64,000 nt of DNA. Source: Loktanella sp. PT4BL (lineage in GTDB: Bacteria; Pseudomonadota; Alphaproteobacteria; Rhodobacterales; Rhodobacteraceae). A program made the translations under genes and the position numbers. Shown in pieces: positions 9,678 through 48,725 of the stretch. The stretch is taken from NCBI RefSeq assembly GCF_003201935.1, contig NZ_QJJL01000002.1, forward strand, positions 806,001-870,000, written 5' to 3'. Under the pieces are notes generated by a model. That model saw only the letters and a list, made by a program, of their open reading frames with translations. It was not told where the DNA came from and made no database searches. The first letter of the stretch is position 1. Each line of letters opens with the position of its first letter.

Positions 9678-11387
9678 TCAGAACATGAAATAGCGCTGCG
9701 CCATTGGCAGCGTCTCAGCCGGTTCGCAGGTCAGCAAGACACCATCGGCGCGCACCTCGTAAGTTTCGGGATGGACGTCGATTTTCGGCAGAGCGGCGTT
9801 CAGCACCATGTCGGTCTTACTGATTTTGCGCACATTCTTGATCGCCACGGTCTGTTTAGCCAGACCAAGGGTATCGCGCAAACCCGCAGCCTCTGCCGCA
9901 CCGGAAATAAAGCTGACAGAGGTGTGCCGCAGCGCGCTACCATAAGACCCGAACATGGGCCGCGTATAAACGGGCTGGGGCGTCGGGATCGAGGCGTTGG
10001 GATCACCCATTTGCGCCACCACAATCATGCCGCCCATCAGCACCATCTCGGGTTTCACCCCAAAAAACGCGGGCGACCACAGCACCAGATCGGCCCGTTT
10101 GCCGACACTGATATCGCCCAGCACGTGGGATACACCTTGGGCAATCGCGGGGTTGATCGTGTATTTCGCGATGTAGCGGCGCACACGGAAATTATCGTTC
10201 TCGCCGGTTTCCTCAGCCAGCCGCCCGCGTTGCTTTTTCATCTTATCGGCGGTCTGCCATGTGCGGATAATCACCTCACCCACGCGGCCCATGGCCTGAC
10301 TGTCGGAGGCGATGATCGAAAACGCGCCCATGTCATGCAGAATATCCTCGGCTGCGATGGTTTCGCGGCGGATACGGCTTTCCGCAAAGGCGATATCCTC
10401 AGGGATGGATTTGTCGAGGTGGTGACAGACCATGAGCATGTCCAGATGCTCTTCCAACGTGTTCACCGTGAAAGGCCGTGTGGGGTTGGTCGAGGATGGC
10501 AGGACATTCGCATCGCCACAGATTTTAATAATGTCCGGCGCGTGCCCGCCACCTGCCCCTTCGGTATGGAAGGCATGGATCGTGCGGCCTTTCATCGCCG
10601 CCACGGTATGTTCGACAAAGCCCGATTCATTCAACGTATCGGTGTGGATCATCACCTGCACGTCCATGTCATCAGCGACCGACAGACAACAATCAATCGC
10701 GCCGGGTGTCGTGCCCCAATCCTCGTGCAGTTTCAGCGCACAGGCCCCGCCTTTGACCATTTCCACCAGAGCATCAGGCTGGCTGGCGTTGCCTTTGCCC
10801 GACAGACCGATGTTCATCGGGATGCCATCGAAAGACTGCAACATACGCCCGATATGCCAAGGCCCCGGCGTGCAGGTCGTGGCCAGCGTGCCATGGGCTG
10901 GCCCCGTGCCGCCGCCAAAGCAGGTGGTCACACCGGAATGCAGGGAATCCTCCATCTGCTGGGGGCAGATAAAGTGGATATGGCTGTCCATGCCACCTGC
11001 GGTCAGGATGCGGCCCTCGCCCGCGATCACCTCGGTGCCGGGGCCTACGATAATATCGACACCGGGCTGGGTGTCGGGGTTCCCGGCCTTGCCGATGGCA
11101 TGGATCAACCCGTCTTTCAAAGCAACGTCTGCTTTGTAGATACCGGAATGATCCACGATCAGCGCATTGGTGATCACCGTGTCAACGGCCCCGCCTGCGC
11201 GGGTGACCTGGGATTGGCCCATACCGTCGCGGATCACCTTACCACCACCGAATTTCACCTCTTCACCATAGGTGGTCAGGTCGCGCTCAACCTCGATCAC
11301 CAGATCGGTGTCGGCAAGGCGGAGCCTGTCACCGGTGGTGGGGCCGTACATTGCGGCATATTGCGCGCGGGAAATCTCGACGGGCAT
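9678..11387 (-). CDS. ureC: Urease alpha subunit (catalytic)
   Basis: 569 residues, the normal length. The bi-nickel site is complete: His136 and His138 (HIHF), carbamylated Lys219 (ALKLHEDWG), His248, His274 and Asp362, with the catalytic flap [22 protein letters not shown] near 318-340 holding the general acid histidine. It hydrolyses urea to ammonia and carbamate in the cytoplasm. The start overlaps the ureB stop by one base (TAATG). Confidence 0.98.
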
Positions 11388-45759: not shown

Positions 45760-47385
45760 ATGGGTTGGATGCGCGATGAAACCGGGCTTGAGAAGCGGGC
45801 GGCGAACTATGTCCCGCTGACGCCTTTGTCGCATTTGCAGCGCGCCGCACTGATCTTTGCTGATCGTGAAGCGGTGGTCTATGGCAAGACCAGAATAACC
45901 TATGCCCAATATTACCGGCGGGTCTCGCGGTTGGCCTCGGCGCTGACCAAGGTTGGTGTGCAACCGGGTGACGTCGTGGCAACACTCCTTCCCAATATCC
46001 CTGCGCAATCCGAAGCAGCCTTTGGTGTTCCCGCCTGTGGTGCCGTCCTGAATACGATCAACACCCGTCTGGATGTGGATACGGTGGCCTATATCTTTGA
46101 CCACGGCGAAGCGAAGGTCGCTTTGGTAGACAGCCAGTTCCTGCCGCTTGCCATGGCCGCAATCGACATAATGGAGGGCCCTGCCCCCTTGATCATCGAA
46201 GTGCCTGATGATCAGGCCGGGGTCCATGCAATGGGCGCGCAGCAGAATTACGAAGATTTTCTGGCGACAGGAGATCCCGAATTTGCTTGGATCCTGCCAC
46301 AGGACGAATGGGAAAGCCTCGCGCTCAATTATACATCCGGCACCACCGGCCGCCCCAAAGGCGTGGTTTATCATCACCGTGGTGCATACCTGATGACGAT
46401 GGGTACACCGATCAGCTGGGAGTTACCGCTCTTTCTGCGCTACCTGCAAATCGTCCCGCTCTTTCACTGCAATGGCTGGAACCACACGTGGATGCTACCG
46501 GCCTTGGGCGGCACTGCGATCTGTTGCCGCGACATAACGGCCAAGGCAATCTATGACGCGATTGGCGATGAAAAGATTACGCATTTTGGCGGCGCGCCAA
46601 TTGTGCTCAATTTGCTGGTAAACGCGAAAGACGCCGAACGCCGCGCCTTTGATCATGTGGTTGAGGTCTTTACTGCCGGCGCGCCCCCTGCCCCTGCAAC
46701 GCTGGCCGCGATCGGCAAACTGGGGTTCAACGTGAAACAGGTCTACGGGCTGACCGAAACCTACGGGCATGTCACCGAATGCATCTGGGAAGACGCATGG
46801 GATAGCTTGCCCGAAGCCGACCAGGCGGCGATCAAGGCACGCCAGGGCGTCGGCTTTCCAATCATGGAAGATGTGACCGTGGTCGATGAACACATGCGGC
46901 AAGTCCCGCGTGACGGAGCGACACAGGGCGAGATCGTCATGCGCGGGAACGCTGTGATGAAAGGCTATCTCAAGAACCCCCAAGCCACGGAAAAGGCCTT
47001 TGCTGGCGGGTATTTCCATTCCGAGGACCTCGCAATCCAGCACCCGGGCGGGGCGATGCAAATTTCCGACCGTGCCAAGGACATCATCATTTCCGGCGGT
47101 GAGAACATCAGTTCGGTCGAAGTCGAGGGCGCGCTGATGCACCATCCGGCAGTGAACCTTTGTGCAGTGGTTGCCAAACCGGACGACAAATGGGGCGAAG
47201 TGCCCTGTGCTTTTGTAGAACTGAAGGATGGCGCCAGCGCGGAAGAAGCAGACATCATCGCTTTCACGCGGACGCGGTTGGCAGGGTTCAAATGCCCCAA
47301 GAAAGTCGTGTTCCAGGAACTGCCCAAAACCTCGACCGGAAAAATCCAGAAGTTTGAGCTGCGCAATCTGGCGAAGACGTTTTAG
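45760..47385 (+). CDS. Acyl-CoA synthetase (AMP-forming), medium/long-chain type
   Basis: 541 residues of the ANL superfamily. The P-loop-like motif is LNYTSGTTGRPKGV (about 190-203), followed by YGLTETYGH, FHSEDLAIQHPGGAMQISDRAKDIIISGGENISSVEVE and the C-terminal catalytic Lys in PKTSTGKIQKFELR. It activates a carboxylic acid to its CoA ester. Relatives include FadD-type and DmdB-type ligases; the nearby fad genes favour fatty acids. GGGAGG precedes the ATG at 45760. An ATG at 45755 is out of frame. Confidence 0.92.
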   Translation: MGWMRDETGLEKRAANYVPLTPLSHLQRAALIFADREAVVYGKTRITYAQYYRRVSRLASALTKVGVQPGDVVATLLPNIPAQSEAAFGVPACGAVLNTINTRLDVDTVAYIFDHGEAKVALVDSQFLPLAMAAIDIMEGPAPLIIEVPDDQAGVHAMGAQQNYEDFLATGDPEFAWILPQDEWESLALNYTSGTTGRPKGVVYHHRGAYLMTMGTPISWELPLFLRYLQIVPLFHCNGWNHTWMLPALGGTAICCRDITAKAIYDAIGDEKITHFGGAPIVLNLLVNAKDAERRAFDHVVEVFTAGAPPAPATLAAIGKLGFNVKQVYGLTETYGHVTECIWEDAWDSLPEADQAAIKARQGVGFPIMEDVTVVDEHMRQVPRDGATQGEIVMRGNAVMKGYLKNPQATEKAFAGGYFHSEDLAIQHPGGAMQISDRAKDIIISGGENISSVEVEGALMHHPAVNLCAVVAKPDDKWGEVPCAFVELKDGASAEEADIIAFTRTRLAGFKCPKKVVFQELPKTSTGKIQKFELRNLAKTF

Positions 47386-47396
47386 GCAGGCGGCAG

Positions 47397-47613
47397 GATG
47401 CCTCCGGCGGAAGTTTGATTGGACATGGAAAATCAAGGCTTCGTTAACCAAGCAACTCTAGACTCGCGGCTACGGTACAGGCGGAAGCGTTGATGACCGT
47501 GACGTGGAAAGTCGCGCTGGCGGGGATCTGAAAAGATCAGCCTGGACCGGGCAACCGGCCAGCGCGCAACCTTTCCACTTTCCATGTCCAATCAAACTTC
47601 CGCCGGAGGCATC
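47397..47613. repeat. Perfect 35-bp inverted repeat pair around a structured 147-bp core
   Basis: Bases 47397-47431 and 47579-47613 are exact reverse complements over 35 bases. The arm starts GATGCCTCCGGCGGAAG and ends with GGACATGGAAA. The core (47432-47578) has further nested pairing: GTGGAAAG with CTTTCCAC, GCGCTGGC with GCCAGCGC, and CCGG-gcaa-CCGG. It lies 11 bases after the acyl-CoA synthetase stop and fills most of the 323-base gap to the next gene. It could be a MITE-like element, two inverted copies of an intergenic repeat, or a long structured RNA. A 12-codon frame (MTVTWKVALAGI, 47493-47531) inside is probably chance. Confidence 0.85.
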
Positions 47614-47708
47614 AGGTCGTGCTCCGCATGATGCCACCCGCTGGTTGTTTCCGACATGACAACCCAGTCCGAAATCAGTACTCTGTTACCAAAAGGGCAT
47701 AAGAGCAG

Positions 47709-48725
47709 ATGACGGCACTGGACCGATATGTACGGCTGGAAAGCGAAGCGCTCTGGCGGTCTGAGCCGGAAGGGCAGCGTCGTGATGTCACGCTGTCGTT
47801 CGGCGATGCGACACTTGTGATTGCAGATGCTACGGGGCGTCCTTTGGCCCATTGGTCGCTGCCTGCGTTGATCCGGCAAAACCCCGAGGAGACGCCCGCA
47901 ATCTACGCGCCAGACGAAGAGGCCAGCGAGATACTGGAGATTGCTGACAGCACCATGATCGAGGCGATCGAGGAGGTGCGCAAGGCCTTGGCAAAGTCGC
48001 GGCCCCATCCGGGAACACTGCGCCATTGGCTGACGGCCGGTCTGATCGTTGTAACCCTGCTCTTGGCCATCTTCTGGCTACCCGGTGCGTTGACACGGCA
48101 GACCCTTGCTGTGGTGCCAGCCCCCAAGCGCATGGAGATCGGAACGAAACTTCTGGGCTATGTGCAGGAAGACACCGGTGCGGCCTGTCAGTCGCCACGG
48201 GCAAATGCTGCGGCGGGACGTCTGGCACGGCGGCTTTTCGGGCCGCAAACCGCAGCGCGGATCATTGTGGTACCCGCGCTTGCGCAGGGCGCGTTGGCTT
48301 TGCCGGGTGGCATCGTCGCACTGGATTACGGGGTATTGCAGCTTTCGGATGATCCGGCGGTTGCGGCGGGTTTTATTCTTGCCGCGCGCGCCTCGGTCCT
48401 GCACATGGATCCGCTGGAAGCCTTGCTGCAACAGGCCGGGCTTGGCACCACATTCCGCCTGCTGACAACCGGCGAAGTTCCGGACGCAATCCTGCGCGAC
48501 AATGCGGCAATGCTATTGGCGGGCGCTGCCGCGACACCAGATCCGACGCTTCTGCGTCAAACGCTGGCGGCGGCACAGATACCCCAGACCCCTTATTTGG
48601 CTGCCGTAGATGCCCGCAGTGGCACGATGCCAGAAATCGGCCCTGATCCGCTTGACGGCCAGACCGTCCCCCTCATCCTGACAGATAGCGACTGGGTCAG
48701 CCTACAGAATATCTGCAATATCTAG
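47709..48725 (+). CDS. Membrane-anchored protein resembling an M48 peptidase without the zinc motif
   Basis: 338 residues. A cytoplasmic N-terminal part (1-105) is followed by one membrane span (about 107-125, LTAGLIVVTLLLAIFWLPG) and an outer domain. There ALPGGIVALDYGVLQLSDDPAVAAGFILAAR (about 197-228) lines up with the M48 pattern ALPGG...LL...L..VLAHEIAH, but the His-Glu-x-x-His position reads AARAS, so it should not be an active zinc protease. I do not recognise a named family. It stands alone between the inverted-repeat element and the convergent upp gene. Confidence 0.75.
   Translation: MTALDRYVRLESEALWRSEPEGQRRDVTLSFGDATLVIADATGRPLAHWSLPALIRQNPEETPAIYAPDEEASEILEIADSTMIEAIEEVRKALAKSRPHPGTLRHWLTAGLIVVTLLLAIFWLPGALTRQTLAVVPAPKRMEIGTKLLGYVQEDTGAACQSPRANAAAGRLARRLFGPQTAARIIVVPALAQGALALPGGIVALDYGVLQLSDDPAVAAGFILAARASVLHMDPLEALLQQAGLGTTFRLLTTGEVPDAILRDNAAMLLAGAAATPDPTLLRQTLAAAQIPQTPYLAAVDARSGTMPEIGPDPLDGQTVPLILTDSDWVSLQNICNI

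Follow-up and report, generated by a model that had tools for sequence, protein, structure and literature searches.

The window analysed here, the whole stretch of 64,000 nucleotides from Loktanella sp. PT4BL, contains an element made up of two inverted arms around a short core, situated just behind a gene for an acyl-CoA synthetase. The arms (47397-47431 and 47579-47613) are 35 nt long, 100% complementary to each other and separated by 147 nt, as an earlier note on this DNA had described, and the core is without a plausible open reading frame (ORF), as that note had also stated. What it overlooked is a likely gene for a small RNA in the core, with a hairpin loop and a linker that match the arms. 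It seems probable that the core is the gene of a guide-like RNA which specifies a dispersed repeat element; spreading and homogenisation of that element are proposed tentatively as the consequence.

By chance alone, about 3e-14 perfect inverted repeats of 35 bp within 500 bp would occur per 64 kb (a simple bound), and this expectation, together with copies of the arm elsewhere in the genome, rules out a chance origin as well as an inverted duplication that is merely local. The match between the arms does break off abruptly on either side; the unit that is repeated, though, is better given as N4-TATTT-like-N3-N10/11 (47410-47431), preceded on its 5' side by a variable GC-rich outer part that is not the same in some of the dispersed copies. 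Within the window the arm head, GCCTCCGGCGG, occurs exactly in the two arms only, with five further places at one mismatch. The arms are probably two inverted copies of a dispersed recognition element of about 22 bp, which agrees with the earlier description of a bounded element or of two inverted copies of a short intergenic repeat in a Rhodobacteraceae genome. The anatomy as a whole (arms, RNA-gene-like core and matching segments; Table 1) is put forward with high confidence on the basis of the analysis.

Folded as single-stranded RNA, positions 47390-47620 have a predicted energy of -140.8 kcal/mol against -78.4 +/- 4.9 kcal/mol for shuffled sequences (z -12.7), to which the arms contribute much. 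A long hairpin formed by read-through from the acyl-CoA synthetase gene, as once suggested, is possible, but it is not what is conserved, the core lying antisense to that gene in 5 of the 11 genomes that have the element at this place.

Table 1. Features of the element and its surroundings (positions in the window unless a contig is named)
Feature	Position	Strand	Remarks
Left arm, 35 bp	47397..47431	+	11 nt past the acyl-CoA synthetase stop codon; outer part plus recognition site
Left-arm outer GC-rich part	47397-47409	+	GATGCCTCCGGCG
Recognition site, class A	47410..47431	+	25 solo copies in the same genome
Class A site, N4	47410-47413		GAAG
Class A site, five bases	47414-47418		TTTGA, replacing TATTT
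Class A site, free spacer	47419-47421		TTG
Class A site, N10	47422-47431		GACATGGAAA
Promoter-like stretch	47444..47464	+	TTAAC half box 47444-47448; -10-like hexamer TAGACT 47459-47464
Likely small-RNA gene	47472..47589	+	start placed at conserved purine 47472; probable end between ~47570 and the first bases of the right arm
Conserved 5' hairpin	47472..47500	+	ACGGU-ACA-GGCG[GAAG]CGUU-GAUG-ACCGU; two helices, asymmetric internal loop ACA/GAUG
Putative guide segment 1, tetraloop	47484..47487	+	GAAG, identical to N4 of both arms
Putative guide segment 2, linker	47501..47511	+	GACGTGGAAAG, matches arm end GACATGGAAA
Predicted branched structure	47512..47567	+	outer stem GCGCUGGC/GCCAGCGC, two inner hairpins
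Right arm	47579..47613	-	exact inverted copy of left arm; its site 47579-47600
RNA, class A (window)	C2:853474		loop GAAG, linker GACGTGGAAAG
RNA, second locus in genome	C1:606169		loop GGAG, linker GCGAGGTGATG
RNA, third locus in genome	C3:229002		loop GGGA, linker GGCCGGTAATG
AMP-binding acyl-CoA synthetase	45760..47385	+	upstream neighbour (context, outside element); PF00501, PF13193
Downstream neighbour	47709..48725	+	context; without Pfam match at E 0.001

A likely small-RNA gene in the core

The core probably holds the gene of a small structured RNA, and sequence comparison shows it to be a member of a conserved, RNA-gene-like family whose 5' hairpin covaries. Among 49 aligned copies the hairpin GCGGU-ACA-GGCN[N4]N'GCC-GAUG-ACCGY retains 99.3% of its pairs and has undergone 28 both-sided changes, compared with 5.5 in shuffled alignments, and RNAalifold, unaided, returns the same structure. 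Relatives that possess the element show little change in the stretch around CGGTACAGGCGGAAGCGTTGATGACCG.

Upstream of the RNA, 252 loci share the pattern TTAAC-N6-TTAAC (at -40 and -29) with A at -13 and T at -9, and a TTAAC-like hexamer lies within 110 nt in 176 of them; the window itself has only one clear half box. The pattern resembles the consensus of CtrA, TTAA-N7-TTAAC, as it is given in an extract of PMC4046655. Downstream, a hairpin followed by a U tract, like that of a terminator, is found in 63 of 250 loci (5 in shuffled sequences and 11 in upstream regions), where it occupies the place of the branched structure of the window copy; the covariation of the two inner hairpins of that structure has been judged by eye only.

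Rfam covariance models returned nothing over the RNA, either in the whole window at the gathering cut-off or in two scans in E-value mode of eight loci each. The one match near an RNA is mir-3129, with 30 bits (gathering 90), which lies beside the RNA at 1278-1359 of locus L091. Elsewhere in the window, 10946-11234 (+) matches 5_ureB_sRNA (RF02514) over its full length with 119 bits. Two other candidates for the core were dropped by eye: a hammerhead-like core, in which the first conserved base differs in the window copy and stem II does not form, and a short leader peptide (MTVTWKVALAGI), the frame of which is not kept in copies at the other locus. At the start of one contig of a relative (L424, G004:C9) a right-arm-like sequence follows the hairpin directly in place of the linker, and this RNA gene is probably broken.

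Correspondence between the RNA and its flanking sites

In the window the best 11-base match of the linker is 9/11 with the left arm and 10/11 with the right arm. The match between RNA and arms was assessed in three ways, by the linker (79 loci), by the tetraloop (140 of 184 loci) and with the site placed without reference to the RNA (181 of 262 loci). In the last case the placement used the inverted repeat plus TATTT, which excluded the class A loci, the window among them, since these have TTTGA; offsets of 0-7 behind TATTT were tried, and the identities reported use the best of offsets 1-4.

Linkers match their own arms better than those of other loci, with 9.29 against 7.29 of 11 positions on the left and 9.28 against 7.59 on the right, and none of 20000 permutations reaches the observed own-arm match. 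The 79 loci include one, the fourth motif match of this genome (L011, at C1:354668), that has three mismatches to the motif, lies in a coding stretch and is not counted as an RNA. The tetraloop agrees with the four bases before TATTT at 3.41 of 4 positions on the left, against 2.17 for other loci (again 0 of 20000 permutations), and is exact in at least one arm at 108 of the 140 loci. Rare loops accompany rare sites, GTGG occurring with GTGG and GCGG with GCGG.

Independent placement of the site gives the same picture position by position. Loop positions 2-4 are identical to the site in 97, 97 and 100% of the 181 loci, linker positions 1-5 in 98, 90, 88, 80 and 76%, positions 7-10 in 99, 99, 99 and 93%, and position 11 in 66%. 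Linker position 6 is identical in 33% only; here G is found in the RNA of 145 loci and A in the site of 151. An offset of 3 behind TATTT gives the best match in 168 of the 181 loci, and the mutual information exceeds that of all 200 shuffles at every position except loop position 1, an invariant G. The linker matches both arms at 8/11 or better in 227 of 262 loci, whereas random partner loci give 86 (left) and 119 (right) and shuffled linkers 77 (left). Over both arms, 492 of 845 mismatches would keep a wobble pair with the complementary strand and 61 are the reverse transitions. At the level of sequence, then, these comparisons show that the tetraloop and linker match the flanking element at a fixed spacing (N4-TATTT-N3-N11) and that, from one locus to the next, they change together with it.

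Such a match might arise from folding within the RNA alone, if linker and tetraloop paired with a 3' tail read from the right arm and both the left arm and the dispersed sites were by-products. The window RNA, when read through the right arm, is indeed predicted to pair its linker with that arm, and in 40 of the 53 loci that have both a terminator-like hairpin and a right arm the U tract lies between -9 and +5 of the arm's inner end. In 45 of these 53 loci, however, the complement of the tetraloop lies past the U tract and so would be absent from the terminated RNA. The match is confined to the left arm at 17 of 262 loci, and four plasmid copies of the RNA outside the family likewise have an upstream site only, which disfavours folding onto the right arm as the sole cause. 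Folding would furthermore leave the cognate dispersed sites without an explanation, and we regard it as an improbable account of the whole.

Dispersed sites and their classes in this genome

A search for the arm in the rest of the genome, which the earlier note had proposed, finds it singly at 25 further places. For the middle of the core (47439-47572) the best match elsewhere in the genome is weak (E 0.04). The idea of a miniature inverted-repeat transposable element (MITE) in the usual sense is not supported here: what is dispersed are lone arms, and the genome contains the core only once.

As the genome holds three RNAs (Table 1), sites of the other two classes were then sought, and they were found, which gives three matching classes. 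The class B pattern GAGTAYTTnnnGCAAGATGAT occurs at 19 places at up to two mismatches, of which 2 are arms (control 0), and the class C pattern GGATAYTTnnnGGCCARTAAT at 16, of which 2 are arms (control 3). For class B, 16 of the 17 solo sites at up to two mismatches were fetched (C6:133679 was omitted, as were eight rows with three mismatches). The search patterns for classes B and C left the spacer unspecified, so that its freedom in these two is partly by construction; this does not apply to class A, whose solo sites were found with the whole element as query. Among these, two spacer bases vary (the commonest base at 0.56 and 0.48), and the matched parts are kept at 0.92 or above.

Altogether 55 solo sites were placed among genes called with a codon model that we built ourselves. 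The 3' end of at least one gene adjoins 46 of them: 18 have a sense-direction gene on each side, 16 separate convergent genes, 11 follow a gene that points at the site and 1 is without a downstream gene call. Of the others, 4 are flanked by divergent genes and 5 fall within predicted ORFs. As far as sequence comparison goes, each class of RNA in this genome has been shown to have its own dispersed sites, mostly at the 3' ends of genes.

This placement bears on what we regard as the strongest rival to spreading, namely regulation by a trans-acting small RNA (sRNA). The RNA, or a tail of it antisense to the element, would pair with transcripts in which the element lies close to the 3' end, altering their stability, and the sites would make up a regulon. 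The preference for gene 3' ends, the promoter-like and terminator-like signals, and the G-for-A differences, which are compatible with G.U pairs in RNA-RNA duplexes, are as such a regulator would have them. The guides have the same sense as the element, however, and the 18 sites between two sense-direction genes would be antisense in neither mRNA. A free spacer after five constant bases, as seen in class A, is not expected of plain antisense pairing, and sites are lost or change class between relatives. We consider regulation unlikely, on balance, as the main function.

An ordinary DNA element of the MITE type, or of the type of repetitive extragenic palindromic (REP) sequences, that merely contains an unrelated small-RNA gene would account for the inverted ends, the solo copies and the empty and switched sites described below, and REP systems look alike in this respect (an extract of PMC2817692). 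The matches would then reflect shared origin and not pairing. Shared origin gives no reason for two separate segments to keep their distance and to differ repeatedly, G for A, at a single position, nor for loop and site to stay in step across classes; and the core is not copied along with the arms. There is little likelihood that this explanation is the right one.

Sites and core orientation among relatives

Across 56 genomes of the genus, sites of the form GAGTATTT-N4-CAAAGCGAG at up to one mismatch are found in 17. All nine genomes with an RNA linker that contains AAAGCGA have 10-34 sites (the two arms of the RNA included), and among the genomes without a cognate RNA 44 of 47 have 0-3 sites; the cut of eight sites used in this comparison was set after the counts were known.

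Four solo sites (A1, A2, A3 and B1 among those named) were compared with their orthologous positions in up to ten relatives. In most relatives the orthologous class A sites agree with the arms of their own genome, with GACATGGAAA in G009 and G013, GACATAGAAA in G044 and GACGAAGAAA in G025 and G010. In G001, GACATGGAAA is present at A1 and GACATAGAAA at A3, and in G003 GACGAAGAAA is present at A1 and GACATAGAAA at A3, the arms in each of these genomes being one of each kind. The same gene end may also carry a site of another class, as at A1 in G042 and G044 and at A2 in G001, G003 and G044, while at A3 G036 and G046 have a degenerate, class-B-like site. The site is absent at A1 in G036 and G046 and at B1 in G010; these empty orthologous sites, like those behind the acyl-CoA synthetase gene, are too diverged to fix an insertion boundary or a target duplication. 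A further class of RNA, with tetraloop GACA and linker CCGACGAAAAAG, occurs in three genomes (L393 in G034, L384 in G026 and L395 in G035).

Relatives that lack the element behind the acyl-CoA synthetase gene, a comparison also proposed earlier, do occur: the 12 listed have 106-186 nt there (gene ends included), against about 350 with the element. Where it is present, the core has the orientation of the gene in six genomes and the opposite one in five (G036, G003, G046, G042 and G010), a total of eleven that includes the window's genome. Five genomes have a related RNA at other places (L047-L051). In L048 and L051, the two of these that were translated, the left arm supplies the last codons of a gene, presumably for an FAD-linked oxidase, and the protein ends ...NPGAVLPPAGV-stop inside the arm.

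The two orientations raise the question of an invertible switch, in which recombination between the arms would flip the core and bring about phase variation of the small-RNA gene or of a neighbour. On the gene tree the 'minus' orientation label, with empty-site species counted among the others, needs four changes, two of them forced by well-supported branches. This tree is poorly resolved, however, and does not settle the number of flips; the arms in the family are mostly shorter and imperfect, and promoter-like signals lie inside the arms, so that flipping need not alter expression. A switch is very improbable.

Distribution of the RNA motif

The RNA motif is present at up to two mismatches in 282 of 394 genomes of the family (and absent at that cut-off in 112), and at up to three mismatches in 54 of the 56 genomes of the genus. 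A reversed control pattern gave 7 matches in the family search and 8 in the genus search; at three mismatches some of the rows are chance matches, and rows clearly unlike the motif were not fetched. In named genomes the motif was found in at least 119 stretches, and most of the 80 rows listed are from Rhodobacteraceae; Roseovarius sp. 217 and Shimia marina are among the carriers. The Paracoccus denitrificans sRNAs 'intergenic 39' and '134' (PMC5107571) are candidates for the same RNA. Around the RNA, 174 of 262 loci reach an inverted-repeat score of 13, against 26 with the arms of another locus and 0 when shuffled, with arms at most loci of the family being shorter and imperfect. The genes next to the RNA loci that were looked at vary. 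A search with the core across the wider family matched 16 of 295 genomes, and six of these matches (L094-L096 and L098-L100) were set aside by eye as a conserved coding stretch, not the RNA. At L089 the left arm lies about 140 nt upstream of the motif, farther than at most loci, with extra sequence between, and the motif also occurs in contigs of metagenome-assembled genomes labelled Gammaproteobacteria and Erythrobacter (L165 and L179), where mis-binning or transfer may be the reason.

Plasmids of Thiothrix, Nitrosococcus, Rhizobium, Neorhizobium and Azospirillum carry the RNA motif as well. The plasmid searches were run at E 10, at which many rows are chance matches, and only individually inspected rows are used here; the whole element has no plasmid match at E 0.001. 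The four copies already mentioned, on Nitrosococcus watsonii pNWAT02, two Rhizobium plasmids and in Azospirillum brasilense, have an upstream site, picked by eye, that matches the linker at 11-12 of 14 positions, and no exact inverted second copy is present in the stretch fetched for each. On plasmids of Nitrosococcus, Thiothrix, Rhizobium and Neorhizobium the motif lies near replication or partition genes (L427-L430, L432 and L438), perhaps merely as a result of compactness, and on the Thalassococcus plasmid pS3A (L436) more TTAAC boxes are found about 150 nt after the RNA. A phage search gave one weak match only, at E 1, and an E. coli search none; the single viral match (L426) lies within a coding frame and is taken as a coincidence, so that viral carriage was rejected.

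Possible function of the RNA

If the core encodes a guide-like RNA, this RNA would be transcribed from the CtrA-box-like promoter and have a length of roughly 75-120 nt. It would recognise the elements in trans through base pairs with their complementary strand. Pairing would take place in two short segments with TATTT between them, and TATTT itself may be read by a protein; the frequent G-for-A difference in the linker (position 6) would place a G.T or G.U wobble at a fixed position. That RNA and dispersed sites pair in trans is judged likely. As to the consequence, our best guess is that the RNA would specify how these REP-like repeats spread and are homogenised and that the protein required would come from elsewhere, the RNA occupying the position held in REP systems by the transposase gene. 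Spreading or rewriting by an RNA-guided protein would fit a spacer that is free after five constant bases, as well as the switching of classes and the concerted change of sites and arms, and spreading as the function of the RNA is offered as a tentative proposal. About as tentative is a specific form of it, in which an RNA controlled by CtrA, and hence by the cell cycle, and flanked by its own sites might direct a recombinase or nuclease to N3-TATTT-N3-N11 sites at the ends of genes. Were spreading programmed by the RNA, the wobble position may mark the point of reaction, and new specificities may arise by joint change of loop, linker and arms.

Several observations weigh against a guide RNA of this kind. 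The loci share descent, and the shuffle and permutation values therefore overstate their independence. Further pair types in the 5' hairpin show no excess (9 against 8.6 in shuffled alignments). Neither arm matches the linker at 6 of 262 loci, and the nearness of the U tract to the inner end of the right arm implies that part of the covariation between linker and arm may stem from pairing within the RNA. No obvious site was seen, by eye, at the copies on two Thiothrix plasmids and on plasmids of Neorhizobium, Cereibacter and Leisingera. Within the genus, G012 (21 sites) and G004 (8) have sites and no cognate RNA was found in them, and G034 (23 sites) has a linker that is one base off and was scored as non-cognate. 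At A2, G036 and G046 have GACATAGAAA but arms with GACATGGAAA or GACGCAGAAA.

Comparison with known systems

MITEs are short, noncoding and bounded by inverted ends. The element has all three properties, but its solo arms are dispersed in place of whole units and its interior is a conserved RNA-like gene. Trans-acting bacterial sRNAs typically have a promoter, a 5' hairpin, a terminator hairpin and a linker that is free to pair. The putative RNA described here likewise has a promoter-like signal, a 5' hairpin, a terminator-like 3' hairpin in part of the loci and a pairable linker. It departs from them in that inverted copies of the sequence it matches lie on both sides of its gene and in that the sites it matches form a dispersed repeat family.

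The guides of bridge RNAs pair with both strands of the target. The bridge RNAs or seekRNAs of IS110/IS1111 elements resemble the present RNA as small structured RNAs with short guides that match DNA sites tied to a mobile element (extracts of PMC11208160 and PMC11187229). In the present case both segments have the same sense, the sites are dispersed as solo copies and flank the gene in inverted orientation, and there is no room between the arms for a DEDD transposase gene; no search was aimed at transposases encoded outside the element.

The closest likeness is to the systems of REP sequences, also known as bacterial interspersed mosaic elements (BIMEs), and their REP-associated tyrosine transposases (RAYTs). 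According to the extract of PMC2817692, these consist of a gene between two inverted short repeats, with many solo intergenic copies and several classes that have cognate genes; arms and gene coevolve, and the copy number tracks the presence of the cognate gene. Both likenesses that were tested were found. The RNA gene is flanked by two inverted copies of the repeat, as seen from the inverted-repeat scores and from the linkers that match both arms, and repeat abundance tracks the cognate gene for the one class examined in the 56 genomes, with G012 and G004 as exceptions. In contrast to REP systems, the flanked gene would be a noncoding RNA that carries the specificity of the repeat, not a Y1 tyrosine transposase; the element has no transposase gene within it, and the consensus sites of classes A-C have neither the GT(A/G)G head nor a palindrome. 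In the open-licence literature of PubMed Central that was searched, no description of such an RNA-repeat system was found, nor were six of the motif and arm sequences found in print.

Recurring as it does across a bacterial family, the arrangement would be a new kind of RNA-addressed repeat system. If this is true, dispersed intergenic repeats gain a cause, in that each class is addressed by a small RNA carrying the address of its repeats. The code would moreover be legible, with three bases in the loop, about eleven in the linker, a register that is fixed and a wobble that recurs, which would make specificities predictable from sequence across hundreds of genera and testable by changes of a few bases. 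The system would then either be RNA-guided in a manner that differs from CRISPR, TnpB and bridge RNAs or represent a new route to an sRNA regulon, and in both cases it makes the spread of such repeats and their continued likeness open to direct test. If spreading is indeed what the RNA brings about, it would be an RNA counterpart of REP/RAYT.
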